From Affinundibacterium fentianense (GTDB lineage: Bacteria; Pseudomonadota; Gammaproteobacteria; Burkholderiales; Burkholderiaceae_D), in contig NZ_JAGSPJ010000001.1 in NCBI RefSeq assembly GCF_018139545.1, positions 186,001 through 250,000 on the forward strand: DNA of 64,000 nucleotides. Reading direction: 5' to 3'. A program made the position numbers and the translations under genes. Positions 946 to 20,028 of the stretch are shown piece by piece. Within the stretch, counting starts at the first letter, position 1, and each line of letters opens with the position of its first letter. The notes beneath the pieces are model-generated. The model made no database searches and was not told where the DNA came from. It worked only from the letters and a program-made list of their open reading frames with translations.

Positions 946-997
946 AGCGCGAATTATATACCTGATCGGTTTCTCTAATGGATTACAAATTCGTTAT

Positions 998-3262: not shown

Positions 3263-3288
3263 AAATGCTCCCAAAAGCGTATAGTGCT

Positions 3289-3319
3289 ATTAAAAACCCT
3301 GTAGTAGGTATAGGGTCAA
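3289..3319 (-). promoter_or_regulatory. MerR-family (CadR-type) promoter and operator for cadA
   Basis: Read on the minus strand there is a -35 TTGACC (3314-3319), a long 19-base spacer and a -10 TTTAAT (3289-3294). The spacer holds the interrupted inverted repeat ACCCTATA/TACAGGGT (3296-3316). The over-long spacer with a centred palindrome is the signature of MerR-family activation, where metal-bound regulator untwists the DNA. It lies between cadA and cadR and probably serves both. Confidence 0.85.
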
Positions 3320-3347
3320 GTAATATTTGTTGACGGGAGTAATTCAA

Positions 3348-3794
3348 ATGGAACTGAAAATTGGCGAACTTGCGAAACGTTCTGGCTGTCAGGTCGAGAC
3401 TATCCGTTTTTATGAGAAAGAAGGACTACTGCCTCCCGCTGTACGCTCGCAAGGGAATTATCGTTTGTATAGTGAGATGCATGCGGAGAGGCTACAATTT
3501 ATTCGTCATTGCCGATCGTTAGATATGACCTTGCATGAAATTCGCCAACTTTTGCAATATAAAGACGCCCCTCAAGAAACCTGTGTTGAGGTCAACTACC
3601 TATTGGATAAACATATTGAGCACGTTGCGCATCGCATTACCGAATTATTACAATTACAAAAGCAACTCACCCACCTACGGAGTCTTTGCGACAATCCAAC
3701 TCTTGGCAAAAATTGCGGGATTCTGCACAACCTTGCAACAACAGAAGGATTGCCGGGTAAGAACTTAGGTAGTCATCGTGGTGGCTGCCATTGA
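3348..3794 (+). CDS. cadR: MerR-family metal-responsive regulator CadR/PbrR
   Basis: A 148-residue MerR regulator. The N-terminal winged helix begins [20 protein letters not shown] and continues [10 protein letters not shown], the family hallmark. The dimerisation helix spans about residues 75-115. Candidate metal-binding residues are Cys near 79 (the conserved dimer-helix Cys, in ETCVEV), Cys near 118 (LCDNP) and the C-terminal Cys/His tail (HRGGCH), as in CadR/PbrR. The start is the ATG at 3348 with GGGAG 8 bases upstream; an in-frame start at 3327 would precede that site. It is divergent from cadA and is expected to activate it in response to Cd, Zn or Pb. Its last 22 bases overlap the 3' end of cusA on the other strand. 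Confidence 0.9.
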
Positions 3795-6700
3795 TGTGTA
3801 GACCCATCACGCGCTTTATTCAATTGTCTGCGACGTAGTAAAAGATAGACCGCAGGCACTACGAACATTGATAGCAATGGCGCCGTAATCATGCCGCCGA
3901 CCATGGGCGCTGCGATCCGCTGCATTACTTCAGAACCGGCACCGTCTCCCAACATAATAGGTACCAAACCTGCGATGATGACCGCGACGGTCATTGCCTT
4001 GGGACGTACCCGTAAAACGGCACCTTCACGAATCGCATCCAGTAAATCTAGCTCGCTGGTTTTTCCTGCTGCCAAACGGTCTTCCCAAGCGTGCTTTAAG
4101 TACAGCAACATGATCACGCCGAATTCCGCTGAGACACCCGCCAAGGCGATAAAACCGACACCGCTGGCGACGGAAAGATGATGCTCCACCGCCCATAAGA
4201 GCCAGATACCGCCAGCTAAAGCAAATGGTAAGGTACCCATGATTAAAACTGCTTCATCCACACGTTTGAAGGTCAGGTATAGCAACACAAAGATAATCAT
4301 GAGCGTGGCAGGTACCACGATTTTAAGTTTGGCTGTTGCCCGTTCCAGAAATTCAAATTGTCCAGACCAGGAAATCGAATAACCCGCTGGCAATTTAACT
4401 TCTTTAGCGACGGCCTTTTGCATGTCTTGTACGGCAGAACTCAGGTCACGATCACGGATATCGACATAGACCCAGCCTGATAAGCGCGCGTTTTCGCTTT
4501 TTAACATCGGTGGGCCATCGTTAATCCGAATGTCAGTCACGTCCCCCAAGCGAATCTGTGCACCGCGCTCCGTCAGTACCGATAATTGACGCAATTTTTC
4601 GACCGAATCGCGCACTTCACGCGGGTAACGCACATTGATCGGGAAGCGCTGTAAGCCCTCAACCGTTTCACCAATATTGTCGCCACCGATGGCCGCTGAT
4701 ACCACGCTTTGCACCTCGGCGATATTTAAGCCGTAGCGCGCTGCGACATCCCGATTGATATTGATATCGATATAGCGCCCACCGTTCAAGCGCTCAGCTA
4801 AAGCAGATGACACACCAGGTACTTGTTTAATGACGCGTCCAATATCACCAGTGATGCGATCAATTTCTTTCAAATCCACGCCCGCAACCTTGACGCCCAC
4901 CGGGCTCTTGATACCAGTAGCCAGCATATCGATACGGTTGCGGATCGGTGGTACCCAGATATTCGATAGCCCGGGTACTTTGACAGTGCGATCGAGTTCT
5001 TCAATCAACTTGTCGGTGGTCATGCCGGCGCGCCATTGGTCACGCGGCTTAAATTGGATCGTGGTTTCGAACATTTCCAATGGCGCAGGATCAGTCGCCG
5101 ATTCAGCACGACCAGCCTTGCCAAATACACTATGCACTTCCGGTACCGTTTTAATCAAACGGTCGGTTTGTTGCAATAGTTCAGTGACTTTGCCAGCACT
5201 TAAACCAGGTAGAGCTGACGGCATATACAGCAAATCGCCTTCATCGAGCGGTGGCATGAACTCGCCTCCTAGACGGGACATTGGCCAGATCGTCGCAAGC
5301 GCAATCAAACTAGCGATCAACAACGTCATCTTAGGGAAGCGTAAGACGCCTTCCAGCAGTGGACGATACAGTGCAATTAAGAAGCGATTCAGTGGGTTCT
5401 TTTGCTCATCCGGAATCTTGCCGCGTATCAAATAGCCCATCAATACAGGTATGAGTGTTACCGCCAGACCGGCTGCAGCTGCCATGGCATAAGTTTTAGT
5501 GAAAGCCAAAGGAGAAAATAAGCGTCCTTCTTGGGCTTCCAGCGTGAACACCGGAATGAAAGACAGCACGATGATCAACAACGAGAAAAACAATGCTGGC
5601 CCAACCTCGGCCGCAGCATCGCCGATCACGCGCCAATGCGCATCTCCCGTCAGTTCTTGTCCGGGATGCGTATGATTCCATGCCTCGATATGCTTATGGG
5701 CGTTTTCTATCATCACGACTGCCGCGTCGACCATGGCACCGACTGCGATGGCGATGCCGCCCAAGGACATGATGTTGGCATTCACGCCTTGGTAGTACAT
5801 GACGATAAAAGCAATCAGGATGCCGATAGGCAAAGTGACGATCGCCACCAACGCCGAGCGCAAATGAAACAGGAAGAGCGCACAAACAATGGCAACGACG
5901 ATGAACTCTTCGATCAGTTTGTGTTCCAGATTGCTGACAGCACGTTTGATTAAATGTGAACGGTCATAAGTAGGCACGATCTCAACACCAGCGGGTAAGC
6001 TCGTTTTAAGTTTTTCCAACTTGGATTTCACCGCGGCAATCGTCTCCAACGCATTTTTACCAGAACGCATGATGATCACACCACCAGCTACTTCGCCTTC
6101 GCCATTGAGTTCAGCAATACCGCGCCGCATTTCTGGCCCAATTTGAATTCGCGCCACATCACCCAGTTGCACTGACACACCTGCATCCGTGGTGCTCAAT
6201 GGGATCTTGCGAAAATCCTCCAGTGATTTAAGGTAGCCAGAGGCACGTACCATGTATTCGGCTTCACCCAATTCCAGTACCGAACCGCCAGTTTCCTGAT
6301 TGGCTTTTTGCACCGCTTCTATGATCTTGCTATGCGTGATGTTGTAGGCTCGCATCTTGTCCGGGTCGAGCTGAATCTGGTATTGGCGTACCATGCCACC
6401 AATACTAGCGACTTCAGAGACATTGGGAACCGCCTTCAATTCAAATTTAAGAAACCAATCCTGCAAGGCACGCAACTGCGACAGATCCATCTTGCCGCTG
6501 CGGTCGATCAAGGCGTATTCATAGACCCATCCAACACCGGTGGCGTCAGGACCTAAGGCGGTCTTGGCTTGCGGCGGCAGGCGGGATTGCACTTGATTCA
6601 GATATTCAAGCACGCGCGAACGTGCCCAATAGGGATCAGTGCCATCCTCAAACAAGATATAGACGAAGGAGTCACCGAAGAAAGAATAACCGCGCACCGT

Positions 6701-6940
6701 CTTGGCACCAGGTACTGAGAGCATGGTCGTCGTCAGTGGATAGGTAACCTGGTTCTCGACGATCTGCGGTGCCTGACCCGGATAACTGGTGCGGATAATC
6801 ACCTGAACATCGGACAGATCAGGAATCGCATCAAGCGGCGTGCGTGAAAATGCCCAGATCCCCCAAGCGCTCATCATCAACGTCGCCAACAATACCAGGA
6901 AGCGGTTGACGATAGCCCAACGAATTAGTTTAGCCATCAT
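3773..6940 (-). CDS. cusA: CusA-type copper/silver RND efflux transporter
   Basis: A 1055-residue inner-membrane proton-driven RND pump of the heavy-metal-efflux (HME) class. The N-terminus ([13 protein letters not shown], then [16 protein letters not shown]) is typical. Three methionine contexts matching the Cu/Ag sites of E. coli CusA are present: LLYMPS, PLEMFE and IDMLATG, which favours Cu(I)/Ag(I) over Zn/Co. The proton-relay Asp is in [13 protein letters not shown]. The gene starts at ATG 6940, overlapping the TGA of cusB (ATGA), so the two are translationally coupled. Its 3' end overlaps the convergent cadR by 22 bases. Length is normal for the family. Confidence 0.95.
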
Positions 6941-8541
6941 TTTTTCGCTCCTGCAGGTACGGAAGGCATTGACATATCGCTCATCGTTTCGCTTTTCGTT
7001 GTCTTAGCTGGCATGTCTTTCTTCGGCGTAGCAATCGTTGGCGCAATGGTGATGATTTGAAATACGCCTTCTTTGATTGCGCGTATTTCGAAGATGACGG
7101 TGTCGCCAATTTCAACATTTTTCGGCAAACCGCCAGCTGGCAATTTGAAGCCCATGGTCATCGATCCCCACTGCAAAGCAGGAATCGGTCCGTGCGAAAT
7201 CGTCATTGTCTCTTTATCGATTTTTTCGACCTTACCTTCGGCACGGTATGTTGCTCCCATAGTGCTGCTATTGTTGGGTGATGCCGACGTGTCACTCATG
7301 CGAGTTGCCGTTCCTTTCAGACTGGCTTCGGAATCGACAAGAAACTGACCAGAAACGACAACCTTTTGTCCTGCCTCCAGGCCTTTAATGATTTCGGTTT
7401 GCCCCTTGCTTTCCATACCGATCACAACATCAACCGGTAAGAACGTACCATTTTCTTGTGCAACCATCACAACGCTGCGCTTTCCCGTCGCTATCACCGC
7501 TTCGGTGGGTATCAACAAGCACTCCTTGCGCGCAAGCCCATCAAAATTAAGCGTAGCAAACATCCCCGGCACCAGTTGGCCGGAAGGGTTGGCCAGTTCG
7601 ATGCGTGCCTTTAGCGTACGGGTGACTGTATCGATTTGTGGGAGAATCGCGCCGACCTTGCCCTTGAAAACTGTACCCGGCAGTGAAGGCGTGCGCGCCT
7701 CGACAGTATTGCCGGTGCGTACTTGGGTAGACAAATTTTCTGGAATATCAGCATTAACCCAAATGGTCGCGTTGCCATTGATACGGAATAAGGATGCGCC
7801 GGTCATCACCGTCATGCCTTCCCGTACTGTGAGTTCAGAGATCACGCCATTAAGCGGCGCGGTAATCGTAAGACGCGAGTGAACTTTGCCGCTGGCTTCA
7901 ATCATGCGTATCTGATCATCGCTCATGCCCACCAGACGCATCCTTTGTTTAGCGCCGTCCAACAGGCCTTCCATGGCACCCACTTGCAGGCGTTTGGCAC
8001 TCAAATACTCTTCTTGAGCGGCAATCCAATCTGGCACATACAGTTCAGCCAGGGGCTGGCCTTTGCGCACCACATCGAATGGTGCTCGCACGTACAGTTT
8101 TTCTACAAAGACATTGCTACGTGCCTGCACCAGTGCCACATCGCGCTCGTTGTAAGCAATACTCCCCACCGCGACCACATTCGGTACCAGATTGCCTGTG
8201 GTGACTTCTGCCGTTCGTATCCCTAAATTCTGCTGAACACGCGAACTGATGCTGACCTTACCGTCATCGTCCTCGCCATTGGCATACACAGGTACCAATG
8301 GCATATCCATAAAAGGAGATTTGCCCGGCTGATCAAATTTTTGACCTGGTACCATCGGGTCATGCCAATACAGGACCTTCTTAACAGTACCTCCTGCTTT
8401 GGGTATTGGGGCAACTGCATCGCTTATCGGCGGTGTGATAGTCTTCATTCCTTGCCGTTTGCCAAGTTGATATGTCCCGTAGCCACTGACGAGGATGAGG
8501 ATAACAAGGCTAAGCATGAGGATATTTTTCTTGGTTTTCAT
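6937..8541 (-). CDS. cusB: CusB-type periplasmic adaptor with fused C-terminal CusF-like domain
   Basis: A 534-residue membrane-fusion protein linking CusA to CusC. After one N-terminal membrane anchor (about residues 6-22) there is a heavy-metal-binding segment ([23 protein letters not shown]), then barrel-sandwich/hairpin regions typical of HlyD-like adaptors. Residues of roughly 435-500 form a CusF-like domain ([22 protein letters not shown], then WGSMTMGF), supplying a periplasmic Cu/Ag chaperone on the same chain. The start is ATG 8541 with AAGGA upstream; an upstream in-frame start at 8619 would lie inside cusC. The start overlaps the cusC stop (ATGA) and the stop overlaps the cusA start. 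Confidence 0.93.
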
Positions 8542-9884
8542 TGGAATTCCTTGTTGAGGATTGAGGACAAATGTCCATCCTGTGTGTCGACTGGAAATAA
8601 GAACTGCAGTTGCGCCCACAAACGAGCGGTATCCGCTTGCAATTGCAGCGCCTGCAAACGCACATCTATCTCGTTGCGGCGCGTACTCAACACTTCAGCA
8701 AGATTGGATTTGCCACCCCGATAGGCAGTGATGACGGCTTCTGTGCGACTAATTGCAAGAGGGACTAATTGATTCTGAAAACGCGTCATACGTTCCCGAC
8801 CGCTTTGCCAGTCATAGATCATGCTGCGTATTTCCGCCACGCGGGCACGCCATATTTCGTCGCGCTCAGCCTTAGCCTGTTCGGCCATGGCGAGTTTGGA
8901 AGCGAGTTCGCGATCTTGTCGATTCTTTTGGTCCCACTGAAACGGTATCGATACGCCGACCGACACCATATTCGAATAGGCTGGGCCACGTTGTTGAAAT
9001 GTTGCCTCAATCGTCCAATCCGCTTTTTTGTTTGCTTGCGCAAGTTTTACATCCGTGTCGGCAATAGTCGCCTGCCATGTCAGCGCTGTAATTTGTGGGT
9101 GATGACTTAATTGCGTGTCGAGCCTTGCCATATCCAAGGGAATATTGTCGATGGCCGGTTGCCCAATCAGCGTCGCTTGTGCCGTTTCACCAATCCAACG
9201 TGCCAGCATGGCCTTGGCACTCAGGACGCGTCGCCCGATTTCACTAAAGCGGTCTTCTACTAACGCCAAGGCACTATGTGCGGCCAGAATATCCGCTTGG
9301 CTACCGCGTCCGGCGCGATAGGCTGCCTCGGCAGTCTTTATTTCCAGCTTCGCTTGATTGACTTGCTCCATCACCACTGCGAGCATTTGCTCAGCGTAAT
9401 AGCGTTCTAACCAGGCAAGCGCAGTATCGCGATAAATAGCGGCAATCGTGTTATCTTTTTCTGCCAAGGTTTTTTCTGTGTTGCGCTCATAGCGCTCGGC
9501 GCGCAGCTGACGTTTGTCAGCACGCGGTATTTCCTGCATGATACCGATGCGACGCATCGTCATAAAATCGCGCGTTAAACTGAATTGATCTTGCCCACTT
9601 AATGGTAAATTATCGATACCAACTTTTAAGACAGGATCAGGTAATTGACCTGCGGCTATGGCCATATCACGTGACGCTTTCACTGTCATATCTTGTGCGA
9701 CTACCTGGCGTGATCGTTTGACCGCAAGTTGCTGCGCTTCATATAAAGTCAGTGAACCATCGGCGGCGAGTGCGTTGAAAGATGCGAGGACTAATCCAAT
9801 GATCAAAATGGACGAACTAATTCGCTGAGCAATAGCAAAAGTATTGTGTCGCACTGCAGTCAGCGTGACGAAAATAGATGACAT
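8538..9884 (-). CDS. cusC: CusC-type outer-membrane efflux factor (TolC family)
   Basis: A 448-residue TolC-like outer-membrane channel subunit. It has an N-terminal signal peptide (hydrophobic stretch to about residue 40, ending near LAADGS), the SLTLYEAQQLAVKRS repeat start and a second outer-membrane-factor repeat in the C-terminal half (DTDVKLAQANKKAD, SVGVSIPF). No obvious lipobox Cys is seen, unlike E. coli CusC. The ATG at 9884 is chosen because GGAG lies about 8 bases upstream; the longer frame from 9902 would place that site inside the gene. First of three coupled genes cusC-cusB-cusA, joined by 4-base ATGA overlaps. Confidence 0.9.
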   Translation of the reverse strand: MSSIFVTLTAVRHNTFAIAQRISSSILIIGLVLASFNALAADGSLTLYEAQQLAVKRSRQVVAQDMTVKASRDMAIAAGQLPDPVLKVGIDNLPLSGQDQFSLTRDFMTMRRIGIMQEIPRADKRQLRAERYERNTEKTLAEKDNTIAAIYRDTALAWLERYYAEQMLAVVMEQVNQAKLEIKTAEAAYRAGRGSQADILAAHSALALVEDRFSEIGRRVLSAKAMLARWIGETAQATLIGQPAIDNIPLDMARLDTQLSHHPQITALTWQATIADTDVKLAQANKKADWTIEATFQQRGPAYSNMVSVGVSIPFQWDQKNRQDRELASKLAMAEQAKAERDEIWRARVAEIRSMIYDWQSGRERMTRFQNQLVPLAISRTEAVITAYRGGKSNLAEVLSTRRNEIDVRLQALQLQADTARLWAQLQFLFPVDTQDGHLSSILNKEFQ

Positions 9885-9964
9885 AAAATCTCCAGATAGC
9901 AATAGACAATATCGTGAGCAGTTAGTGATAACAGCTCAACAGTAAAGGACTAGGCAATCTGAAA

Positions 9965-10357
9965 TTAAATGCGGAAACAGCAGTTGAGGATAGTGATGGG
10001 CGGTGCGTTGGAGCGACTTGCGATGATCGATTCAGGCTTAGCGAAAGCTAAAAATCTATCATAATCATTGGCATTTAAAGCGAATATTAAAGCCGTCGCG
10101 ATAAAAGGATGAACATCAGGGAATGCAGGTTTATCTAAAGACTGTTTGCTTTGCGTATCTTGGGCGTGAGCTTGGCAAAGACCCGGTTGATTTTTATCCA
10201 TGCCTTCACAGTTTGGCATGTCGGAAGAATCGACGTCCATCGACATCGCCATCATTTCCGGCATACCGGGACAGACGTATGACGCCACAGCACACTGCAT
10301 AAACAGAATGCTAAATAGCGCAATACAAATGGTAAGGATGCGAAATCGACGATGCAT
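9965..10357 (-). CDS. Small secreted Cys/Met-rich protein at head of the cus operon
   Basis: A 130-residue protein of unknown function. It has a signal peptide (about residues 1-25, ending near AVAS) followed by a Met/Cys-rich stretch (CPGMPEMMAMSMDV, DMPNCEGMDK), suited to binding Cu(I)/Ag(I), and a C-terminal CC pair. It lies 80 bases before cusC on the same strand, behind a recognisable promoter, so it is probably co-transcribed with the pump. By analogy with other small periplasmic proteins in metal operons it may buffer, sense or deliver copper; that is inference. It resembles no family I can name with certainty. Confidence 0.75.
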   Translation of the reverse strand: MHRRFRILTICIALFSILFMQCAVASYVCPGMPEMMAMSMDVDSSDMPNCEGMDKNQPGLCQAHAQDTQSKQSLDKPAFPDVHPFIATALIFALNANDYDRFLAFAKPESIIASRSNAPPITILNCCFRI

Positions 10358-10387
10358 TTTCTTAACTTCTTAATAGACTCTTGGTGC

Positions 10388-10417
10388 AGAATAGGTGAAC
10401 CTAGCAGCACATGTCAA
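10388..10417 (-). promoter_or_regulatory. Sigma70-type promoter for the cus operon
   Basis: Minus-strand TTGACA (10412-10417) and TATTCT (10388-10393) are separated by 18 bases and lie about 30 bases before the ATG at 10357. The -35 is consensus. No clear CueR-type palindrome is visible in the spacer, so the regulator is not evident. Confidence 0.6.
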
Positions 10418-10437
10418 GTTACCATTTTGTAAGGATT

Positions 10438-10467
10438 CAAACTTAGTTTGGAGCGACATTTTGTCGC
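10438..10467. repeat. Two adjacent short palindromes in the cus/HAD divergent intergenic region
   Basis: CAAACT-T-AGTTTG (10438-10450) is followed two bases later by GCGACA-TTT-TGTCGC (10453-10467). Both have perfect 6-bp arms. There is no T-run, so a terminator is unlikely; operator sites or remnants of an insertion boundary are possible. Confidence 0.5.
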
Positions 10468-10538
10468 CTCACTGACGATGCCCGATAAAATGCTTAATAG
10501 ACGATTGACTGTTGCAACTAATTATGAAGATGTAAATA

Positions 10539-10985
10539 ATGATTTTGTTTCTTGATTTCGATGGCGTGCTGCATCCAGAGCCATGTTTTGATCGCACTCA
10601 GTTTTTTTGTTTTTTACCTAAACTGGAAATGGTACTCCACGATTTCCCTTCAGTAAAAATTGTGATAAGCAGTACCTGGCGAGAAAATCGCTCACTCCAT
10701 GAACTACGAGGCTTTTTTAGTGAAACAATCCGTCATCGAATTATTGGTACGACACCGCATTGGCGTGACTGCGCCGAATTACTGGAAGTGATCGGATTTC
10801 AACGTCAGACAGAAATTGAGGCCTGGCTACGGAACTCACCAGAACCGTGGGAGTCATGGATCGCGATTGATGACAAATCATACCTGTTCCGACCATTCAT
10901 ACCCAATTTAATCAAGACAGCATCAGCAATTGGATTTGATGAAGTCGCTGAAATGCGATTGCGTACGTTGTTATCGATTTCGTAG
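10539..10985 (+). CDS. HAD-superfamily phosphatase of the HAD_SAK type
   Basis: A 148-residue HAD hydrolase. The N-terminus MILFLDFDGVLHP is HAD motif I (nucleophile DxD), ISSTWR carries the motif II Ser, and IAIDDKS is the motif IV acidic pair. The small size and layout match the HAD domain described in 'Swiss Army Knife' RNA-repair proteins, but it occurs here as a free-standing protein; the family assignment is by pattern only. The family usually removes phosphate from small substrates or nucleic-acid ends. It is divergent from the cus operon and begins the accessory island. The ribosome site is weak (GAAG about 10 bases upstream). Confidence 0.75.
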   Translation: MILFLDFDGVLHPEPCFDRTQFFCFLPKLEMVLHDFPSVKIVISSTWRENRSLHELRGFFSETIRHRIIGTTPHWRDCAELLEVIGFQRQTEIEAWLRNSPEPWESWIAIDDKSYLFRPFIPNLIKTASAIGFDEVAEMRLRTLLSIS

Positions 10986-11049
10986 ATAAAACTGCGTGCT
11001 ATGGTTGACATCGATTTGAAGCCGGTGTCTTCAAGGGAATAGATGATTG

Positions 11050-11328
11050 CTATTTTTCAGAGACTTTTTTCTTACGATGATTTTGTTCAGCGATTGACTG
11101 AATGATAATTTCTAAGCCTTCATGTGGATCAGCATCGATGGCCTGGCAGTACTTGATGAATTCTACAAGTTCAATTTTCTTTCGATCTTGCTCCATCTTC
11201 CCGACGCTCGTGAAGTGAGCACCAATGATGGGGGCAATCTCACGCAATGTTAATGAAGACACCGAACGCCTCAGCTTCAGCCAAGCACGCAGTTTTTCAT
11301 AATGAGGTGAGTAGGAGGAAGTTTTCAT
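11050..11328 (-). CDS. XRE-family helix-turn-helix regulator
   Basis: A 92-residue Cro/C1-type DNA-binding protein. The segment SSLTLREIAPIIGAHFTSVG and following KMEQDRKKIELVEFIKYC is a typical HTH_XRE (helix 2-3 plus KxE and the helix-4 stretch). The reading frame extends upstream to 11466, but the ATG at 11328 fits the domain start; no good ribosome site precedes it, so a leaderless or weakly translated message is possible. It is divergent from the 174-residue protein/helicase pair, with palindromic sites in between, and probably represses that unit and itself. Confidence 0.8.
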   Translation of the reverse strand: MKTSSYSPHYEKLRAWLKLRRSVSSLTLREIAPIIGAHFTSVGKMEQDRKKIELVEFIKYCQAIDADPHEGLEIIIQSIAEQNHRKKKVSEK

Positions 11329-11374
11329 TGTAGCGATAGTAGATACGCGATACAATGTAGCGAAATTCGATACA
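11328..11374. promoter_or_regulatory. Probable XRE operator overlapping the helicase-unit promoter
   Basis: A near-palindrome TGTAGCGAAATTCGATACA lies at 11356-11374, and the same arms recur as TGTAGCGA (11329-11336) and CGATACA (11348-11354). On the plus strand a promoter TTGTAG (11328-11333), 17-base spacer, TACAAT (11351-11356) overlaps these arms. It sits between the divergent XRE regulator and the winged-helix/helicase genes, so regulator binding would block the promoter. The promoter and binding are inferred from sequence only. Confidence 0.6.
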
Positions 11375-11389
11375 AAACCTTGACGCAAA

Positions 11390-11914
11390 ATGAAGCAAAG
11401 AAAATTTAAAAAGGAAGTAATCGACACTTTTCGGTTATTGGCCGGCAAGACTTTTACAATAGGCAAAGCACTTGAGGTGTATTTAACGACACCGTCAAAA
11501 ATTCATTCCGAATCAAAATCTGCCAGGCAATTTGTTCATAGAAACATATTGAGGTTCTTATCGACAGGTGACATTGTTCAAGTAGCCTCTCAGGGACGTG
11601 CGCAACAATACAAAATGACGGATCAGTTTAGTGAGCGACTCACAAACGAAAATCAATCGTCTAACACAACAAAGAATGAACCTTTGGTGCAAAAGAATAC
11701 GCTCGGAAAAAATTTGACTGACCGTCTTAATCAACAAAAATTGATGTTACTCACTGCCATCGGCGAGGCCGAAGAGTACGACGCCATTTATAAAGAGCTA
11801 CCAGAAATTGGCGCGCAAATTCAAGAGCTTTATAACGAATCACGAGACAGATGCTCTAAATTATTAGGCAAAGTAAAAGCAATTGAAAACCTGATCGCAT
11901 TGAGTTCTCGATAA
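11390..11914 (+). CDS. Winged-helix/coiled-coil protein of unknown function, partner of the helicase
   Basis: A 174-residue protein with no family I recognise. The first 80 residues read like a winged helix (FTIGKALEVYL, RQFVHRNILRFLSTGDIVQV, then a short beta-hairpin QGRAQQYKMT), followed by a polar linker and a C-terminal predicted helix (about residues 108-170) with a heptad-like pattern, probably a coiled coil. It ends two bases before the helicase ATG, so the two are almost certainly translated together and may form a complex. Function could be DNA/RNA recognition for the helicase or regulation. Confidence 0.75.
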   Translation: MKQRKFKKEVIDTFRLLAGKTFTIGKALEVYLTTPSKIHSESKSARQFVHRNILRFLSTGDIVQVASQGRAQQYKMTDQFSERLTNENQSSNTTKNEPLVQKNTLGKNLTDRLNQQKLMLLTAIGEAEEYDAIYKELPEIGAQIQELYNESRDRCSKLLGKVKAIENLIALSSR

Positions 11915-11916
11915 TC

Positions 11917-13329
11917 ATGAAACTGAGAAAGTGGCAGTCAGCGTGCATTGAACTTGCATGGCGAAAATTCGCGACCAAAGAAAACCATTTCCTTTGCTTA
12001 GCAACGCCTGGGGCTGGAAAAACTGTCATGGCGTCAACACTAGCCAATAGACTCTTTCTAGAAAATAAAATAGATCTTGTTTTGTGTTTTTCTCCGTCGG
12101 TTACAGTGGCATCTGATTTTGAATCGGCACTGGCGACACATACCAATTTACGGATGGATGGACTTTTAGGCTCTAAAGGTCGCTCTTTAACCTATCAAGG
12201 AATGCTCCATCTCAATGCTTCGTTTTGGGCACTATTTGAGACCTATCGTATATTCGTCATTTTCGACGAAATCCACCATTGCGCGGGTGATGGGATAGAA
12301 AATGCGAATGCCTGGGGTCAGAAAATTATTGAAAATATTCAAGGGCATGCTGCCTATACATTGGCATTGACGGGAACTCCTTGGCGGTCAGATCAAATTC
12401 CCATTGCGCTTTCCCGTTACTGTCAAAATAACCGAATTCACTGCGACTATATTTATGGACTGATGCAGGCCGTCTCGGATAACGTCTGCAGAACACCCCA
12501 GATTACCTTGATCGATAACGACAACGTGACCGTTAAGCAAAATGGTGAGAGTTTTAAATATTCGTCGTTCGGACAATTACTCAAAGATTCCAAATGTTCT
12601 TACCAACAGCTAATCGAAAACGAGGAGCTGATCGCCTATCTGATAGGGAAATCGACGGGTAAGCTAAACACCATCAGAAAACAAATTCCTGATGCAGGTG
12701 GATTAATTGTTGCGGCATCGGTCGAACATGCAAATAAAATTGTCAGAATTTTAGAAGATCGCTTTAGCGAAAAAGCCTATGTGGCAACGTACCGGGTAGA
12801 AGATCCGCAGCAAACGATCAACGAGTTTAAGCATAATTCAGAAAAGTGGATTGTGGCTGTTGGCATGATCAGCGAAGGTACAAATATTCCAAGATTACGT
12901 GTGTGCTGTCATCTGACGCGGGTCAAAACTGAACTTCACTTTCGACAGGTACTCGGACGAATATTGCGAAGTAACGATGAAACAAAGAGTGATGCTTTTC
13001 TCTACATGCCAGCTGAACCAGATTTGATTGAATACGCAACGCGTGTGGCGCAAGAAATACCAGAGGGCTTGAGCGTAAAATTTGATTCGATGTCAAAAAC
13101 AAAGAATGAAGTAACGCAAAAATCTAATACAGAGAGAAACAAGTCATTCAATCAAGGACTTACCTTGGACTTAGGTCGAACATACGAGAAAGCGTCTATG
13201 TTGACTTCGGATATTTATGTCCCTCATGAGCGTTCAACACTGGCAAATACCTATGAGACTAGCATTAATATTTTTGGTAAATTCAAGCAAGAACTAATTG
13301 CAATGCGACTTGGACTTTCTATAAGATAG
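11917..13329 (+). CDS. SF2 DEAD/DEAH-like helicase (ResIII type)
   Basis: A 470-residue superfamily 2 helicase or translocase. Motif I is ATPGAGKT near residues 29-36, motif II is DEIH near 115, motif III is LTGTP and motif VI is RQVLGRILRS near 344; a GMISEGTNIP stretch resembles motif V. These point to an active ATPase of the type seen in restriction and defence proteins. No nuclease or methylase domain is visible in it. It follows the winged-helix protein by two bases and precedes the HAD-AbrB-phosphoesterase trio by 39 bases. The target nucleic acid is unknown. It is not one of the housekeeping helicases. Confidence 0.85.
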   Translation: MKLRKWQSACIELAWRKFATKENHFLCLATPGAGKTVMASTLANRLFLENKIDLVLCFSPSVTVASDFESALATHTNLRMDGLLGSKGRSLTYQGMLHLNASFWALFETYRIFVIFDEIHHCAGDGIENANAWGQKIIENIQGHAAYTLALTGTPWRSDQIPIALSRYCQNNRIHCDYIYGLMQAVSDNVCRTPQITLIDNDNVTVKQNGESFKYSSFGQLLKDSKCSYQQLIENEELIAYLIGKSTGKLNTIRKQIPDAGGLIVAASVEHANKIVRILEDRFSEKAYVATYRVEDPQQTINEFKHNSEKWIVAVGMISEGTNIPRLRVCCHLTRVKTELHFRQVLGRILRSNDETKSDAFLYMPAEPDLIEYATRVAQEIPEGLSVKFDSMSKTKNEVTQKSNTERNKSFNQGLTLDLGRTYEKASMLTSDIYVPHERSTLANTYETSINIFGKFKQELIAMRLGLSIR

Positions 13330-13368
13330 GGATAATAGAAAATTTACTGAAATCTTCAGACACGAACC

Positions 13369-13986
13369 ATGGTTAAACCGATTATTGCCTTGGACGCTGA
13401 CGGCGTATTACTGGACTATCACGTCGCTTATCGTAGCGCTTGGGAGAAAGCATTTAACCATTGTCCTGCATTAAAGGACCCAAACGCCTATTGGCCAATA
13501 GATCGCTGGGATGTACGTAAGTTAGAGGGCGATGAACTGGTACAGTTTCGATGTTTTTTTAACGAAGAATTTTGGAGAACTATCCCTGCAATCGATGGTG
13601 CAATAGACGCCTGCAATCAATTGCACGATGCAGGATTTGAACTAGTTTGTGTCAGCGCCATTGAGTCAAAATTCGAAAATGCACGATTAGAGAACTTGAT
13701 GAACCTTGGGTTTCCTATTCGTCGGGTCATTGCGACCAGCAATACGGCCAGTGCGACGAGCCCCAAAGCGGCTGCGCTAAGTTTGTTGAATCCAATCGTT
13801 TTTGTAGATGATTTTCTTCCCTATCATCGCGGTGTTTCTCCGACCATTCATCGCGCACTCATCACTCGGGAAACGAATGGCACACCTAATCTCGGCACCG
13901 AGCTCGACAATATCGATTCAAGCCACCAAGATCTACGCATGTTTAGCAATTGGTGGCTAGAAAATTCACCAAAACTGTCATCATGA
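13369..13986 (+). CDS. HAD-superfamily hydrolase
   Basis: A 205-residue HAD hydrolase with motif I ALDADGVLLD near residues 6-15, a motif II-like VSAIES, a Lys in TSPKAAAL and motif IV VFVDDFLPYH. A cap domain inserted after motif I is suggested by the Trp-rich stretch WPIDRWDVRK. The substrate cannot be told from sequence. Its stop codon overlaps the start of the AbrB-like gene (ATGA), placing it in one coupled operon with that gene and the phosphoesterase. Confidence 0.8.
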   Translation: MVKPIIALDADGVLLDYHVAYRSAWEKAFNHCPALKDPNAYWPIDRWDVRKLEGDELVQFRCFFNEEFWRTIPAIDGAIDACNQLHDAGFELVCVSAIESKFENARLENLMNLGFPIRRVIATSNTASATSPKAAALSLLNPIVFVDDFLPYHRGVSPTIHRALITRETNGTPNLGTELDNIDSSHQDLRMFSNWWLENSPKLSS

Positions 13987-14168
13987 ACTTAACGGACGAA
14001 TCATTAAGCAAGTGGGAAGTCACACTGATCGATGCTGGCGATGGAAGCGGCGATTGCTATGTCGAATTTCCCAAGGAATTACTAGAGAAACTCGATTGGC
14101 ATGAAGGGGATGTTATCAACGTCGATATCGTCGACGAGCAATTGCTTCTCGTAAAAGTATATGGTTGA
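13983..14168 (+). CDS. AbrB/MazE-like small DNA-binding-fold protein
   Basis: A 61-residue protein with the swapped-hairpin AbrB pattern: WEVTLIDAGDGSGDCYVEFP, then KELLEKLDWHEGDVINVDIV and a terminal hydrophobic strand. The LGW-x-EGD-like core (LDWHEGD) is characteristic. The start ATG 13983 overlaps the stop of the HAD gene; a longer frame from 13950 lies inside that gene and is less likely. It could be a transcription factor or an antitoxin-like partner. Its stop overlaps the phosphoesterase start by 8 bases, so the three genes are tightly coupled. Confidence 0.75.
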   Translation: MNLTDESLSKWEVTLIDAGDGSGDCYVEFPKELLEKLDWHEGDVINVDIVDEQLLLVKVYG

Positions 14169-14844
14169 ACTATTTTTTTGCGGGGATACCCACGGTGAGT
14201 TTCAGCATGTGATTGATGCAGTGAAATTGCATCGACCAGCCGCGATTATTTTCTTAGGCGACTTGCAAGCCAAGAGGCCATTAGAAGTCGAACTCCAAGA
14301 AATTATCTGCCTGACGGAAGTCTGGTTTATTCATGGGAATCTCGACACAGATTCTGATGTTGACTTTGACCATCTTTTTAGCTCAGGCCTTGCCGACCGA
14401 AATTTACATGGCTGCGTGGTCGACATTGGCGGGTATAGAATTGCCGGTCTTGGTGGCGTTTTTAGAGGTCAAGTGTGGCTGCCGCCCAATGCTCCCAAGT
14501 TCGATTCACAAGAAGATTACGCATACCATGGCGGTAAGGGAAACTTGTGGCGTGGAGGACTCACCAGAAAGCATCGCAGTACCATATTCCCGATTGACTA
14601 TGCATCATTAGCTAGTCAGAAAGCAGACATTCTCGTAACGCATGAGGCGCCTAGCTGCCATCCCCATGGATTCTCCGCTATCGACCAACTGGCACGCTCG
14701 ATGAACGTAGGTTGGAGTTTTCATGGTCATCATAATGACGACTACGATTACCAACAATCGCGAAAATCTCTCGGCTTTAGTGCTTATGGCGTTGGGTTAT
14801 ATAACATTGCAAAGTTTGAAGGTACTTTAACTCAATTATTTTAA
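14161..14844 (+). CDS. Calcineurin-like metallophosphoesterase
   Basis: A 227-residue phosphoesterase with a full set of metal-binding motifs: GDTHG near residues 8-12, LGDLQA, HGNLDTD (the GNxD/E motif), a single His in VTHEAP and GHHND near the C-terminus. Such enzymes cleave phosphomonoesters or phosphodiesters, including nucleotides and nucleic acids. The substrate is not evident. It is the last gene of the plus-strand cargo series and faces the tniQ gene, separated by 127 bases. Confidence 0.85.
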   Translation: MVELFFCGDTHGEFQHVIDAVKLHRPAAIIFLGDLQAKRPLEVELQEIICLTEVWFIHGNLDTDSDVDFDHLFSSGLADRNLHGCVVDIGGYRIAGLGGVFRGQVWLPPNAPKFDSQEDYAYHGGKGNLWRGGLTRKHRSTIFPIDYASLASQKADILVTHEAPSCHPHGFSAIDQLARSMNVGWSFHGHHNDDYDYQQSRKSLGFSAYGVGLYNIAKFEGTLTQLF

Positions 14845-14971
14845 AGTAAATCAAACACTCTTCATTTATGAATCTTTGCGGATTAAAGAGATCTGTATGT
14901 ACGAAGTTAAGCGCTGTTGTATCGCTAGAACTAAAATCACTTTCGAAACACGCGAGCCCGCAACGAAAATG

Positions 14972-16486
14972 CTATTTCTCTTCCCAGTCGGCGTGTGTCC
15001 ATTTGATCAAAAGCAATCCATCGTCCGTTTCTCTCAAACGCACGCACTTGCCAGGTTCGTCGCGCGTCGAGGGATGAACCCGGTTCTTTTCAATCATGTC
15101 GAGCCATCTGTTGATTTTGAATTGTGCCGAATCAATTTCGAAATCCGCGGTTGCGTTTAGCAAATCCTGCAAGGGCGACGTTTTCTTCCATTCACAGCAC
15201 GTCCAGGCCTGCGGATATGCACAAAGATACCCGTCAGCGTTGACATTTGCTTCTGAAGTGTATTCAATTAAATTGGCATCGTACATGACTTTCGACTCTT
15301 GAAAAAAACGGTAGGTTTCATCATTGGCTTTCCGCTTCGAAAGAACATTGTATTTATTTCCAAATTCCAGTTCCAGTTCTTCCAGCGCCACCTCATAGGG
15401 GCACAATAATCGCCAGTTCGACCGCCTGTCGGGATCGGTCTTAAGCCAATGATAACCCCAACCTGCTTTTTCCCTTCGCCAAGAGCAGCAACATTCTCCA
15501 TGCCTTCTTCTAATCTGATCCTGTACAGCACGGAGCTTTCCCATATACGGCGGGGGCTGATGAGAACGTATGGCAACATCTTTAAAGAATGCAAATATCA
15601 TCCAAAACGGTATGTTCGGCCTCAACCGACAGATCTCATCACGGACGCTACTTGGAAAATGGCGTGTCTCCAGATGGCATTTCTCACCTCTGGCTACGAA
15701 AAGTGACTCTATAAGCTCCGGCATCGATTCCAACTTTTGAAGTCGACCCATCAAATGGTTATATGAGCGCTCCCCGGTCTGATGAAAAAAATCGGAATTC
15801 CAAAATTCGCCACGAGAAAACTCTTTAGCGGCTTCGCTAGATTTTCGCGTCCAATCCAACAGCAGCCGAAGATAGACGTTTTCTCGTGCATTCGATATAA
15901 ACGGATCGATTTCCTCGCATCTTGGCCACGTTCGGCAACGCGATATCATCAATTTTTTGGTCGAACTCACCCTACTTGAAGCAATTGAAGCACTCACGTG
16001 TGTATATTGAGCCAACTCTAGCGATCGAAGATGAAATGGACAGCGCTTGAGCCAGGGTAGTTCATGAAGGTGACTGTGATACCCTGAATCAGCACATCGC
16101 GGGCAATAATGAACCCGGTCCGAATAGAGCTTTTCACCGTGGACGTGATAAGCGTCGAAGTCCCCAAGGTGAACGGAGGTATGGAAAATACTCTCTACTA
16201 TGTCGATATCTTCATTCAGCAGAGAAGCTATACGACACAGATCTTCCTTTGTAAGGCTGTACTCGTGGCCTACAGTGTAGCCAAAAAATTTCTGAAATTC
16301 CTTAAGATTTATGCAGTTGAGCGCGCAGAAATTGGCGGCCAGCGACAAAGGGGACTCGTAGTAGCGCAGTTTGCCAGGCCACCAATTCACTTCAGGTAAT
16401 AGTTCGATACAAGTCCGCTGTTCAACAAATCGCGGCCCGTAATTACCGCGTAGCTCCGGGATTGGTGGGTATTGCTCAAGTTCCAC
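14972..16486 (-). CDS. tniQ: TniQ/TnsD-like target-selection protein
   Basis: A 504-residue protein with the TniQ zinc-finger pattern: YCPRC near residue 133 followed by a His-rich segment and CPFHL. Short TniQ proteins (about 400 residues) belong to Tn5053-type elements; this one is about the length of TnsD of Tn7, which binds a specific chromosomal site, so sequence-directed insertion is possible. It is third in the order tniA-tniB-tniQ, starting 18 bases after tniB. The C-terminal half has no motif I recognise and would carry the target specificity. Confidence 0.85.
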   Translation of the reverse strand: MELEQYPPIPELRGNYGPRFVEQRTCIELLPEVNWWPGKLRYYESPLSLAANFCALNCINLKEFQKFFGYTVGHEYSLTKEDLCRIASLLNEDIDIVESIFHTSVHLGDFDAYHVHGEKLYSDRVHYCPRCADSGYHSHLHELPWLKRCPFHLRSLELAQYTHVSASIASSRVSSTKKLMISRCRTWPRCEEIDPFISNARENVYLRLLLDWTRKSSEAAKEFSRGEFWNSDFFHQTGERSYNHLMGRLQKLESMPELIESLFVARGEKCHLETRHFPSSVRDEICRLRPNIPFWMIFAFFKDVAIRSHQPPPYMGKLRAVQDQIRRRHGECCCSWRREKAGWGYHWLKTDPDRRSNWRLLCPYEVALEELELEFGNKYNVLSKRKANDETYRFFQESKVMYDANLIEYTSEANVNADGYLCAYPQAWTCCEWKKTSPLQDLLNATADFEIDSAQFKINRWLDMIEKNRVHPSTRDEPGKCVRLRETDDGLLLIKWTHADWEEK

Positions 16487-16504
16487 GCCTCCACCCCTTC
16501 TCGA

Positions 16505-17509
16505 TCAAGCGACTTGAGTGATGGCATCGATGTGCCCGGAAAATCCTGTTTCCCTAATGATATCTACCCAAGAATCATAATGAGTGACGTCTTCCCATTC
16601 TTGTCCTTCTGCGAGTCGCCATAATGCTTCCTCGATCGCCAAGGCGACATGTTTCATCGGAATTTCGACTTCGAGCGATCTTTTTTCATAAAAGAGCTTG
16701 AATTCAGATGGTAGCAAATCGTTCAACGCCCTCCAAAGGTCGTCGGTGCAATCCGCCAGACGGCGGCCTGCCAAAAATTGCGCTGGCGCAAAGTAATGAA
16801 GATAGGATTTGCCAGAGCCAGCAGGCCATTCTGATTCCTGGTCGTATCCTTCCAGGACAAACCTTAATTCTTCGATGCCTCGCAAACCATGGAAGGGTGA
16901 GTTTAAAACAAAAAATCGAGCAGCAATATGAGAATTTCCGGTTTTGGCCAGGTAGTCATGTTGGTAGCCGATTTGCTGCGTGCCGATCGAAAATACGCTA
17001 AGTCGGTAGCCATCTAAATCGAGAATGTTCTGTAGTCCCATTAGCCACTGCCATTCACGCAAAGTTACGTCCTGCGCTTCGTCGATCAGTATCACGATAT
17101 AGTTGCTATTCGACGCGTTTGCTAAAGAAACCATCCGATTTCGAAATAGCTCCCGCACCCCAGCACGTCTGCTCTTATGCTTCATCTCGTCGACAAACCG
17201 AAACTTCGACGCCAGCAATAGGTCTCTCCAGAAATCGACCTCGCTCACATGCATGTCATGTCTCCTTACCCAAATAACGAGTGGGATCGCGGCGTTGAAA
17301 CGTTCTTCAAGCGCGGAGCGCACATACCATTTGATACCTCGGGATTTGCCGAAGCGAGAGGGGCCGTGAATGTATCCGCCCGACTCCATTCGGTTTATCC
17401 AGTTTCCGATCGTTTCGATTAACTCGTTAATCGGCGGCGTATAAACCGCATACTCCTGAGTCGCAATGGGATGCTGAGGGCTGATATGGGAGGGGCGTAT
17501 TATTCGCAT
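16505..17509 (-). CDS. tniB: TniB/TnsC-like AAA+ ATPase of the transposon
   Basis: A 334-residue AAA+ regulator of transposition. The Walker A motif is GPSRFGKS near residues 49-56 and the Walker B is IVILIDEAQD near 138-147, followed by a region with the sensor-type SIGTQQ. TnsC/TniB proteins bridge the target-site protein and the transposase and impose target immunity. It begins 6 bases after the tniA stop and ends 18 bases before tniQ, so the three form an operon. Length is between those of TniB (about 300) and TnsC (about 550). Confidence 0.88.
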   Translation of the reverse strand: MRIIRPSHISPQHPIATQEYAVYTPPINELIETIGNWINRMESGGYIHGPSRFGKSRGIKWYVRSALEERFNAAIPLVIWVRRHDMHVSEVDFWRDLLLASKFRFVDEMKHKSRRAGVRELFRNRMVSLANASNSNYIVILIDEAQDVTLREWQWLMGLQNILDLDGYRLSVFSIGTQQIGYQHDYLAKTGNSHIAARFFVLNSPFHGLRGIEELRFVLEGYDQESEWPAGSGKSYLHYFAPAQFLAGRRLADCTDDLWRALNDLLPSEFKLFYEKRSLEVEIPMKHVALAIEEALWRLAEGQEWEDVTHYDSWVDIIRETGFSGHIDAITQVA

Positions 17510-17515
17510 GATTTT

Positions 17516-19519
17516 TTAGTTGTTGGCAGCCTTGCGCGGCGCGGGAAGTGTACGGCGGGACTCACGTGTTTTTGCGGGGCTAGGAGTCGCGTGATTTCGA
17601 ACACTATTCTCTTTGGCCCGCGTGGATTCTCGGGCCTGACGCTCGCTAGCTATTTCGATCATGGATCGTCCTACCATCGCTTCTGCTACGTCAATCAGGA
17701 TTCTTCGTGCCTCAAGATAAGCAGGATGTACCGGTAATTTTTTACCTTCTTGCCGCTCACAGTACCGGATGAATACTTCAATGGCATCCTGGCCTGCAGC
17801 GACTTTCAATTTCCCAGCGTTGATCCATGATGCAACGGCGTTCCTAACCTCAAGACTATGGGGTAACCGATTCCATGGGGAACTTACCTGCAAGATCCCC
17901 AAAGGTTGCCCGCTCTCCGAGGACGCCCGAACGACGCGCACGTCATCTTCAATATGATTGATGATCCAAATTTTCTTGCCGACGAGATCATGACGCTGAC
18001 CAAGAATGTCGCTAGTATACCTTCCATGTCCGAAGTACACGAAGGGACGTCGGCCTTGCTCATATCCTCCGTGGACGACACAGAGCTTTCGGAAACTAAC
18101 AATATCGCTTACAGAATTCGGATCAGCATAACGAAGCGATCGCTCCGGATAAGCCATACGAAATTCGAGATAGTCGAGCGGCGAGCGGCCGCCAAGACTT
18201 GAATGAGGGGTGACGTTGTAATTGGCAATCAAGACAGCAAGCAACTCCGCTGCATACTCAAGCTGGAACTGGCTGGTGAGCGCAACTTCGTCCGGGTCTC
18301 GCCCGCCTTTGTCCGAGGGTTTTCCGCCGGTCGTGTTCGATAGCCTTTGAAAGCCACGCTGCCCCAGTGTACGGAAGAAAGTCTCGATAAACGGACGGTC
18401 GTCTTTACTCCTTCTCACGGCGAAACTATTCTCGGGTTCAAGCAAGTCTGATCCGACAACATCTTTTAATACTTGTTTTACATGTTTGCAAGTTTCTGCC
18501 AAAGAGCCGTCAACGCTGGTTTCGTCCCAACAGACTCCGATGAATTTTTCTGAAGCAGCCGATGGCAGGTTCGCCTTCGGACGATAGGCATCATTTCCAA
18601 AGGTGATTTGTATCCGTTTGGATTTGGTTAGCGCCATTTTTAAAGCTCGAAGAACGTCGACCTTGGAGACTTCTTTGCGCATACTGAAGTGGTAGCCAAG
18701 CACAGCCCGCGACGTGACCTCAAGAATTACGACCACCCACAATCTATGGACGATTTTTTGAGCATATCCGCCGGTAGGCTGAGGAATCATTATGCTGAAG
18801 CGACCGTCAGTTTTGTGCGCGTCCATTTCCACACGCTGAAACAAGAAGTGGACTGGCCTGTCAGTGCCATCGCCCGTCAACATCTTCTTTTTGTTGTTAG
18901 GACCACCTACGACCAATGCTGCTGATTCAGGATTTTCGTCTAGAACGGATTTGATGAATCTGCTGACTGAGACGTATCCCATGTTTTTCGTATTGAAGGG
19001 CCACTTGCTTTCGGTTTCATAGCCGAGCGCGCGAAGTTCCCCAAGGAACCATTGCCAATGACCTTGCTTACTACGCCTGTTGACTGAGAGCTTATTTTGC
19101 GAGCCAGTGGACAGGATGCGTTTGACGAACTTCTCTCGTATGGCTGGATGCTGGTTTAACACCGTATTTAAGGCGCCGACCGCTCCCTGGCCGAACTTAT
19201 CGACGTTGATTTTGTGCTTACGCTGATATGAATTGATCCGCTCCCAAGGAACCAAGGCGCGCCATCCCCACACCTCCCCATCCCTGTGAACCAACAGACA
19301 GCGCTCCTTAATAAGTCGAATAGTCTGCGAGAGCCCTATACCCGCCTGCTTTTTGATTTCGCTCTCTGTCGCTCCGTCGAAGTACAGCATGATTGCTTTC
19401 TTTCGTGCAAAGTAGCCATCTTTAAGTGGGCCTTGTGGAAGTGCTCCTTCATCTGGGTATTTCCAGTCGAATACTCTGAGTTCTTCAGTGTTTAGCCGTC
19501 TGCTGTTTTTCGCGCGCAT
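17516..19519 (-). CDS. tniA: TniA/TnsB-like DDE transposase
   Basis: A 667-residue rve-type transposase. The N-terminal third contains helix-turn-helix-like DNA-binding segments; the catalytic core includes VEMDAHKTDG (first Asp near residue 230), CWDETSVDG (candidate second Asp near 330) and DDRPFIETFFRTLG (Glu near 376), then a Mu-like C-terminal beta-barrel region and a basic tail. Similar proteins cut the 3' ends and join them to target DNA. No TnsA-like endonuclease is nearby, so movement would be replicative/cointegrate-forming as in Tn5053 unless a resolvase or host step intervenes. No resolvase gene was seen. The gene is intact. Confidence 0.88.
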   Translation of the reverse strand: MRAKNSRRLNTEELRVFDWKYPDEGALPQGPLKDGYFARKKAIMLYFDGATESEIKKQAGIGLSQTIRLIKERCLLVHRDGEVWGWRALVPWERINSYQRKHKINVDKFGQGAVGALNTVLNQHPAIREKFVKRILSTGSQNKLSVNRRSKQGHWQWFLGELRALGYETESKWPFNTKNMGYVSVSRFIKSVLDENPESAALVVGGPNNKKKMLTGDGTDRPVHFLFQRVEMDAHKTDGRFSIMIPQPTGGYAQKIVHRLWVVVILEVTSRAVLGYHFSMRKEVSKVDVLRALKMALTKSKRIQITFGNDAYRPKANLPSAASEKFIGVCWDETSVDGSLAETCKHVKQVLKDVVGSDLLEPENSFAVRRSKDDRPFIETFFRTLGQRGFQRLSNTTGGKPSDKGGRDPDEVALTSQFQLEYAAELLAVLIANYNVTPHSSLGGRSPLDYLEFRMAYPERSLRYADPNSVSDIVSFRKLCVVHGGYEQGRRPFVYFGHGRYTSDILGQRHDLVGKKIWIINHIEDDVRVVRASSESGQPLGILQVSSPWNRLPHSLEVRNAVASWINAGKLKVAAGQDAIEVFIRYCERQEGKKLPVHPAYLEARRILIDVAEAMVGRSMIEIASERQARESTRAKENSVRNHATPSPAKTRESRRTLPAPRKAANN

Positions 19520-19560
19520 CGCTTTCCACCTCGGTTATGCCATCTGAAATTTTGACCAGT

Positions 19561-19640
19561 GGTGGTAAATATACATTATTATGTAAAGCGGTGAAAGACC
19601 CACACTTTTACGTAAATAACTCGAAATTAAAGGTGTAAAT
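19561..19640. repeat. Four GTAAA-containing motifs upstream of tniA, possible transposase binding sites
   Basis: The motif GTAAA recurs at 19565, 19583, 19612 and 19635 in the same orientation, twice inside a longer shared context (GGTGGTAAAT and AGGTGTAAAT). TnsB/TniA elements carry several direct transposase binding sites near each end, and this region is where the tniA-side end should be. The motif is short and the region AT-rich, so chance is not excluded. Nothing else coding is seen between 19520 and 19770. Confidence 0.35.
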
Positions 19641-19770
19641 GAACAAGCGCAATATCTAATAAAAACAATGACTTACAGGGCATCATTATTCACAAAATTA
19701 TGTTTTCACACGAAGATTTATCATATGCTGGATAGTCGCTGAGATGACTTGATTGGTTTGATGCTGTCTT

Positions 19771-20028
19771 CTATTTACCAAGTTGATCCGTCGTGACCAA
19801 ATTAGCGAAAATCGGGACACAAGTGAGCAAGCATGTAAGTGTCCAAAATGTAAACTGCAAGCCAACTGCACTAGATAAAAATCCAATCGCAGCTGGACCT
19901 GCGAAGATCCCAGCATAAGCAATTGTCGAAATGGCGGCAATCGATCCAATTCCAAAGCAAAGAAAAAGCAAACCAAGTACATGACCTGCTATGAAAACAG
20001 TAATCGGGTTGCGAGGCGACTTGCTGGG
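19771..20028 (-). pseudogene. MFS transporter C-terminal remnant
   Basis: The minus strand is open from 20028 to the stop at 19771 and encodes two or three hydrophobic segments with the run AYAGIFAGPAAIGFLSSAVG and a following TM stretch. The YAG-x-x-AGP-x-x-IGF pattern matches the second-last region of MFS permeases. A TAG at 20029-20031 and absence of the upstream transmembrane segments show the 5' part is missing, so this is a decayed gene fragment next to the transposon. Confidence 0.6.

Follow-up and report, generated by a model that had tools for sequence, protein, structure and literature searches.

A recurring XRE-winged-helix-helicase gene triad in the cargo of a Tni-type transposon of Affinundibacterium fentianense

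We analyzed a stretch of 64,000 nucleotides of Affinundibacterium fentianense DNA (assembly GCF_018139545.1, contig NZ_JAGSPJ010000001.1, positions 186,001 to 250,000; hereafter the window) that holds part of a Tni-type transposon with seven cargo genes next to its transposition genes. The main finding is that three of these genes, encoding an XRE-type regulator (XRE), a winged-helix protein (WH) and a RadD-like superfamily 2 (SF2) helicase (HEL), recur as a triad that adjoins mobility genes of unrelated kinds somewhat more often than expected by chance. Comparison of gene content indicates that this triad is the conserved unit and that the cargo is not a single seven-gene system. We tentatively read the triad as an XRE-switched, helicase-based anti-invader cassette that would ride many unrelated mobile elements, with hydrolase and AbrB-like genes added to it in Undibacterium.

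Conservation of the XRE-WH-HEL triad

Positions refer to the window; negative coordinates lie to its left on the same contig (G000:C45) of a genome of 4,232,143 bases. An earlier reading of positions 10539 to 19519, made from the letters alone (the sequence-only reading), had described tniA-tniB-tniQ on the minus strand facing plus-strand genes for a helicase, two haloacid dehalogenase (HAD) hydrolases, an XRE regulator, a winged-helix protein, an AbrB-like protein and a metallophosphoesterase (MPE). The open reading frames (ORFs) were found where it had placed them and these gene calls were confirmed, except for the strand of XRE: this gene (11050-11349) runs on the minus strand, diverging from WH (11390-11914, plus strand), which is followed by HEL (11917-13329, plus strand).

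A pattern search matched 197 stretches, 167 of which encode a HEL relative. The best 80 were kept as the locus sample, HEL thus being present in all of them by construction. WH was found in 75 of these loci, an XRE ORF in 74 and both in 72, and in 71 of 74 loci the end of WH was within 150 bp of HEL. The XRE proteins fall into four clusters that exchange while WH and HEL remain. XRE matched the libraries weakly (PADLOC, 0.0026-0.0038; PHROG, 0.0036); its annotated homologues are named helix-turn-helix regulators, and the cluster tallies also place the homologue on the minus strand.

HEL has the Pfam ResIII and Helicase_C domains, and an alignment of 62 sequences shows invariant helicase residues. 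The nearest solved structure, by sequence (1.8e-10) as well as by fold (2.5e-14; TM-scores 0.41-0.52), is RadD, the Escherichia coli repair helicase. Unlike RadD, however, HEL is shorter, is paired with WH and XRE, occurs on mobile elements and falls below the NCBIfam cut-off for RadD membership (52.2 versus 720 bits). HEL overlaps the PbeA models solely in the helicase region. The possibility that HEL is a phage gene was rejected because only 1 of 50,697 phage records matched at E≤1e-20. Damaged helicase copies were also seen: L005 has a single in-frame stop, and the ORF is split or cut in both L180 and L186.

WH (174 amino acids; 63 homologues aligned) had no match in Pfam or NCBIfam and only scattered weak matches in PADLOC, where no family was hit by more than 2 of the 64 members. 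An AlphaFold2 model (mean pLDDT 86.4) consists of a winged helix and a C-terminal helical hairpin. In Foldseek searches, PadR-type proteins matched the whole chain with low TM-scores (0.34-0.40), whereas matches to the winged helix only reached 0.65-0.70. A nuclease or a known viral protein was considered and rejected for WH, given this model and the lack of a BFVD match at E≤0.001.

A near-palindrome between XRE and WH (11356-11374, no strand) is a candidate operator; it is the sole match to its pattern in the window, and the same letters occur in L009 and L078. This Undibacterium sequence was rejected as a general operator, being present in only 2 of 26 loci, and most loci of that XRE cluster carry another. 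A different 21-bp palindrome, upstream of HEL and between XRE and WH, was found with at most three mismatches in 22 of the 27 loci with XRE cluster 3, the palindrome having been picked from the same loci in which it was counted. It was absent from the 47 loci with the other three XRE clusters, present in one of six with no cluster assigned, and occurred nowhere else in the 1,317,870 positions scanned; its best match in the window has seven mismatches.

Composition of the seven-gene set

The other four cargo genes, all on the plus strand, encode a HAD_SAK_2 phosphatase (10539-10985; Pfam, 2.2e-28), an NT5C-like HAD hydrolase (13369-13986; Pfam, 5.9e-7), an AbrB/MazE-like small protein (13983-14168; NCBIfam, 4.3e-4, and Pfam, 7.1e-5, both below curated cut-offs) and MPE (14161-14844; Pfam Metallophos, 1e-8). 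Because WH, HEL, the second HAD gene, AbrB and MPE follow one another with intergenic gaps of 2, 39, -4 and -8 bp, their arrangement suggests a single operon.

The sequence-only reading had treated the cargo as one module and had called for a search for the same gene set elsewhere. That search was partly successful: all seven genes, in identical order, stand beside a different transposon in U. baiyunense (G003/L011). L078, however, lacks AbrB and MPE, and the remaining triads lack the HAD/AbrB/MPE set. Among the sampled genomes of the family, HAD was present in 26 of 294 and MPE in 11 of 294, mostly without the helicase. The one-module claim therefore did not hold, and the seven-gene set appears from its distribution to be composite. 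The helicase itself behaves as an accessory gene, being present in 4 of 43 genomes of the genus, with its profile found in 2 of 294 genomes of the family, so the cargo is not a core chromosomal locus of the relatives, an outcome that would have spoken against the sequence-only reading.

Two further arrangements were noted. In another genus, L196 (G079:C8) has HADSAK-, AbrB- and MPE-like genes together, accompanied by two ORFs that were read as an exonuclease-like gene and a second gene of phosphoesterase type; the stretch has no triad, and the genome was not among the helicase matches. In two Microbulbifer loci (L056 and L058) an extra gene follows HEL, which Pfam identifies as a metallophosphoesterase in L056.

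Mobility genes beside the triad

The 80 loci were searched with queries for Tni/Tns proteins, SE/GInt-like recombinases, Gmt proteins, a tyrosine recombinase, a Tn3 transposase and one further integrase cluster. With these queries, mobility genes were recognized in 29 loci and none in 51. The nearest mobility gene was within 3 kb of the triad in 25 of the 29, versus 17.2 expected under random shifting of the mobility genes (9 of 5000 shuffles). An earlier control, in which the triad was moved at random instead, had given an expectation of only 13.2; it was too generous and flattered the result because HEL sits in the middle of each locus by design. Omission of three near-duplicates gave 22 of 26 (14.6 expected; 7 of 5000 shuffles), and when four Undibacterium loci were also dropped the value was 18 of 22 (12.0 expected; 31 of 5000 shuffles).

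The neighboring mobility genes were diverse. Tni genes without a TnsA match adjoin the triad in the studied element and in L078, L008 being too short to tell, and Tn7-like genes with TnsA do so in L009, L011, L026 and L085. The triad stands beside tni/tns genes in five Undibacterium elements. SE/GInt-like genes are the neighbors in, for example, L010, L015 and L034, and GmtXYZ in L072; other loci have a tyrosine recombinase, with or without a KfrA-like partner, or a Tn3 transposase. In two Vibrio plasmids (L167 and L169) the triad lies between tnsC and tniQ of I-F3 CRISPR-associated transposons (CASTs); each record annotates type I-F cas genes along with tnsABC and tniQ. L167 has, in addition, a hybrid histidine kinase gene between tnsC and tniQ.

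Annotated plasmid copies of the triad gave a similar range of neighbors. Eight regions have it beside integrase operons of SE/GInt-like layout, a likeness judged by comparing the four-gene layout and gene sizes with the published IntA/Tfp/IntB/Srap and GinABCD arrangements, with an insertion sequence in between in two of them; another copy is beside gmtY/gmtX. Starting from the mobility genes, 50 plasmid records with IntB-like genes were examined; the triad was within 4 kb in at least 13 of them, several being near-identical, and about 15.5 kb from IntB-like genes in four Alteromonas records. It was also present in 2 of the 60 GmtY records listed (of 135) and in 2 of 7 TnsB records.

Possible functions of the triad

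Our best explanation, to which we assign a probability of roughly 0.45, is the anti-invader cassette. WH would bind DNA through its winged helix and direct HEL, as a RadD-like ATP-driven motor, onto invading DNA. XRE would hold the divergent promoters low, which would allow the unit to become established in a new host; control proteins act in this manner in restriction-modification (R-M) systems. The remaining four cargo genes (both HADs, AbrB and MPE) would then have been added to the triad in Undibacterium. This explanation draws on the recurrence of the triad, the intact helicase residues, the RadD-like fold, the winged-helix model, the interchangeable XRE proteins, defense genes in the flanks of some copies, the placement of both element ends, the lack of a TnsA match, and a named anti-phage system that the same element carries (below). 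Among 26 annotated non-phage regions, which had been chosen by likeness to HEL and were counted without a matched control, 7 had clear defense genes in their flanks (CBASS/TIR, R-M and anti-phage PLD/DUF1156), and we read such genes in the flanks of 3 more (10 of 26 in total). Defense, one half of the sequence-only reading's proposal of a defense or nucleic-acid repair module, fits part of the context, and RadD as the nearest fold leaves room for the other half.

Several results weigh against a defensive role. Type I R-M genes were found in 16 of the 80 loci, within 3.4 kb in every case; their nearness did not exceed chance, 12 of the 16 being within 3 kb versus 10.2 expected (1237 of 5000 shuffles). 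Searches of the cassette found no nuclease domain, and neither PADLOC 2.0.0 nor NCBIfam 20 has a specific model for the WH-HEL pair. Finally, the nearest fold belongs to a repair protein, and closeness to mobility genes would also be accounted for if WH and HEL serve the carrier itself.

Such a helper role, for example in restart or repair at transposition or recombination intermediates, or in retention of the element, is the main and a close rival, although we consider it the less probable of the two and doubtful by itself. The excess of nearby mobility genes, the location between tnsC and tniQ in two CASTs and beside tni/tns genes in Undibacterium, and the resemblance of HEL to RadD all speak for it. 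There is also a precedent, since the sections of PMC7157771 used here argue that toxin-antitoxin pairs are part of Tn3-family transposition modules. Those pairs are likewise accessory modules beside recombination genes, whereas WH-HEL contains no recognized toxin or antitoxin. Against it, the queries recognized no mobility gene in 51 of the 80 loci, and the IntB-like, GmtY and TnsB modules often lack the triad.

The identical genes and order beside two different transposons, the operon-like spacing and the metallophosphoesterase after HEL in L056 would also suit a single seven-gene system for defense or nucleic-acid repair, in which the phosphatases and the phosphoesterase act on ends that the helicase generates or uncovers. 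The partial set in L078, the occurrence of HAD and MPE mostly without the helicase and the absence of the set from other triads make this improbable. Slightly less probable still is a passenger cassette with neither a defense nor a mobility function that spreads by recombination between elements. Genomes with several diverged copies, such as the four loci of Colwellia demingiae (L025, L037, L054 and L082), and the damaged helicase copies speak for a passenger, but the invariant helicase residues and the conserved palindrome point to selection. We also considered a broader proposal, that XRE-WH-HEL is a general add-on of mobile DNA, taken up by DDE transposons, CRISPR-guided transposons, tyrosine-recombinase islands and Tn3 elements beside their own recombination genes; it would protect, restart or exclude DNA while this is being transferred, at times set by an exchangeable XRE/operator switch. 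We now regard this as unlikely, its odds having been lowered because the fairer shuffle control weakened the closeness to mobility genes and because the nearness of type I R-M genes did not exceed chance.

The triad is of interest as a recurring unit that both libraries searched leave unmodeled and that stands beside mobility genes of several unrelated element types. Its carriers include conjugative plasmids of enterobacteria and pseudomonads, and known defense systems are often near. If the triad is a defense system, it is a compact type without a recognized nuclease; if it is a mobility helper, it is an unrecognized partner common to transposons and islands. Our literature search, which covered open-licence papers, recognized none that describes the three genes as a unit; the SE and GInt papers never use the word helicase in their main text, and the paper on Tn7 cargo uses it once, for Gabija. 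The association may have been seen in part through two clusters of orthologous groups (COGs), hipB, which we take to be an XRE-type COG, and ssl2, which we take to be an SF2-helicase COG. According to the sections used here of a 2025 survey (PMC12452197), hipB and ssl2 are among the most enriched cargo genes of Shewanella I-F3 CASTs; these sections name the COGs without presenting them as a unit, and mention neither WH nor any further type of element. The two may correspond to XRE and HEL, in which case the association would have been partly observed before, neither as a unit nor across element types.

Type and extent of the element

The transposition module consists of tniQ (14972-16486; PADLOC TniQ, 2.4e-6), tniB, encoding an AAA ATPase (16505-17509; Pfam AAA_22, 5.8e-8), and tniA, encoding the transposase (17516-19519), all on the minus strand. 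TniA matched no Pfam or NCBIfam family and had a weak match to a PHROG transposase (1.6e-6); tblastn found homologues in 66 plasmid records, with at least 80% coverage in 42.

The ends of the element were located with a site model derived from four other elements (L078, G212, G138 and G143), in which 13 sites preceding tniA were used; no site came from the studied genome. At the right end, whose position is approximate (span 19572-19710), tniA is preceded by two transposase-site-like repeats, at 19572 and 19601, and by a third, degenerate one near 19691. When 104 kb were scanned with the model, its three best matches fell at -18188, -18165 and -18145, oriented oppositely to the right end, and an additional site at -18264 may be terminal. 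The left and right clusters scored 61.0 and 37.5, compared with 34.2 for the one other cluster in the region and 35.1 for the best cluster in 60 random first-order Markov sequences. Because these clusters mark ends at about -18.2 kb and +19.7 kb, we estimate the element at about 38 kb: it would occupy 1-19710 of the window (no strand) and extend beyond the left edge as far as roughly -18.26 kb (near 167.7 kb of G000:C45). The cargo genes lie inside these inferred ends, which supports the claim of the sequence-only reading that the element carries them; its region covers the right quarter only of the whole, and a search for a left end by simple repeats within that region found nothing, the sites being about 29 kb further left.

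Comparison with relatives, as the same reading had recommended for mapping the ends, was informative for the flanks. Homologues of the core gene directly left of the element are present in G006, G007 and G011; these three, together with G003, G024 and L078, also have homologues of the dehydratase gene on the right side of the element. Both flanks are present in G007 and G011, separated by 3.2 and about 8.5 kb of different DNA. An exact empty site was not found in the relatives, the DNA between the flanks being variable. No 5-bp target-site duplication was recognized at the inexact ends, and a single 7-bp match was judged to be due to chance. The ends therefore rest on repeats and synteny.

The element has tniA, tniB and tniQ in a single cluster and oppositely oriented arrays of transposase sites at its two ends, and two TnsA queries matched nothing in it at E≤0.1. 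Assignment to the Tn5053/Tni type is supported, as the sequence-only reading had held. The element shares this gene cluster, the repeat clusters at its ends, the lack of a tnsA match and a tyrosine recombinase with Tn5053/Tn402-type (Tni) and other Tn7-like elements, as well as a cargo of defense and metal-resistance genes as described in the sections of PMC8649781 used here. It differs in that a target-site duplication was not found, the literature examined does not treat its cargo core as one unit, and its TniA is far from the described ones compared (identity no higher than 65% in the family search).

Left of the window (-11206 to -9056; L122:8794-10944), a gene for a KfrA_N protein is divergent from a tyrosine recombinase gene, the same layout as the TnpT/TnpS resolution pair in the sections of PMC7157771 consulted. 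A replicative pathway is argued for tnsA-less elements with a resolvase in the corresponding sections of PMC8649781, and a putative resolvase in this element would fit that pathway. The element probably moves by replicative transposition, resolved by the TnpS/TnpT-like pair. The same family of tyrosine recombinases also flanks the triad in L013, L014, L027, L030, L035 and L058.

Other cargo and neighboring genes

A patatin, an E1/E2/JAB fusion and a metallo-β-lactamase (MBL)-fold protein, identified by NCBIfam and domain matches, are encoded left of the window (-15967 to -11474; L122:4033-8526). The fusion matches the 6A-MBL model cap2_3 of NCBIfam (531 bits versus a cut-off of 320; 3.5e-159), and the MBL-fold protein matches the MBL model of the same system (351 versus 220 bits; 6e-105). 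As judged by these matches, the same element carries the named anti-phage system 6A-MBL, outside the region covered by the sequence-only reading.

Metal-resistance genes occupy the left part of the window. NCBIfam matches above curated cut-offs identify a heavy-metal P-type ATPase (998-3274, minus strand), a CadR/PbrR-type regulator (3327-3794, plus strand) and a CusA/CzcA-type resistance-nodulation-division transporter (3773-6940, minus strand). They are followed on the minus strand by genes for an efflux adaptor (6937-8619) and a TolC-like protein (8538-9902), both with NCBIfam matches, and by a small ORF with no family match (9965-10357). Just right of the inferred right end is a short minus-strand ORF (19771-19971) that had no match in the six relatives searched; its letters read like those of a major facilitator superfamily transporter, and it may be a gene remnant.

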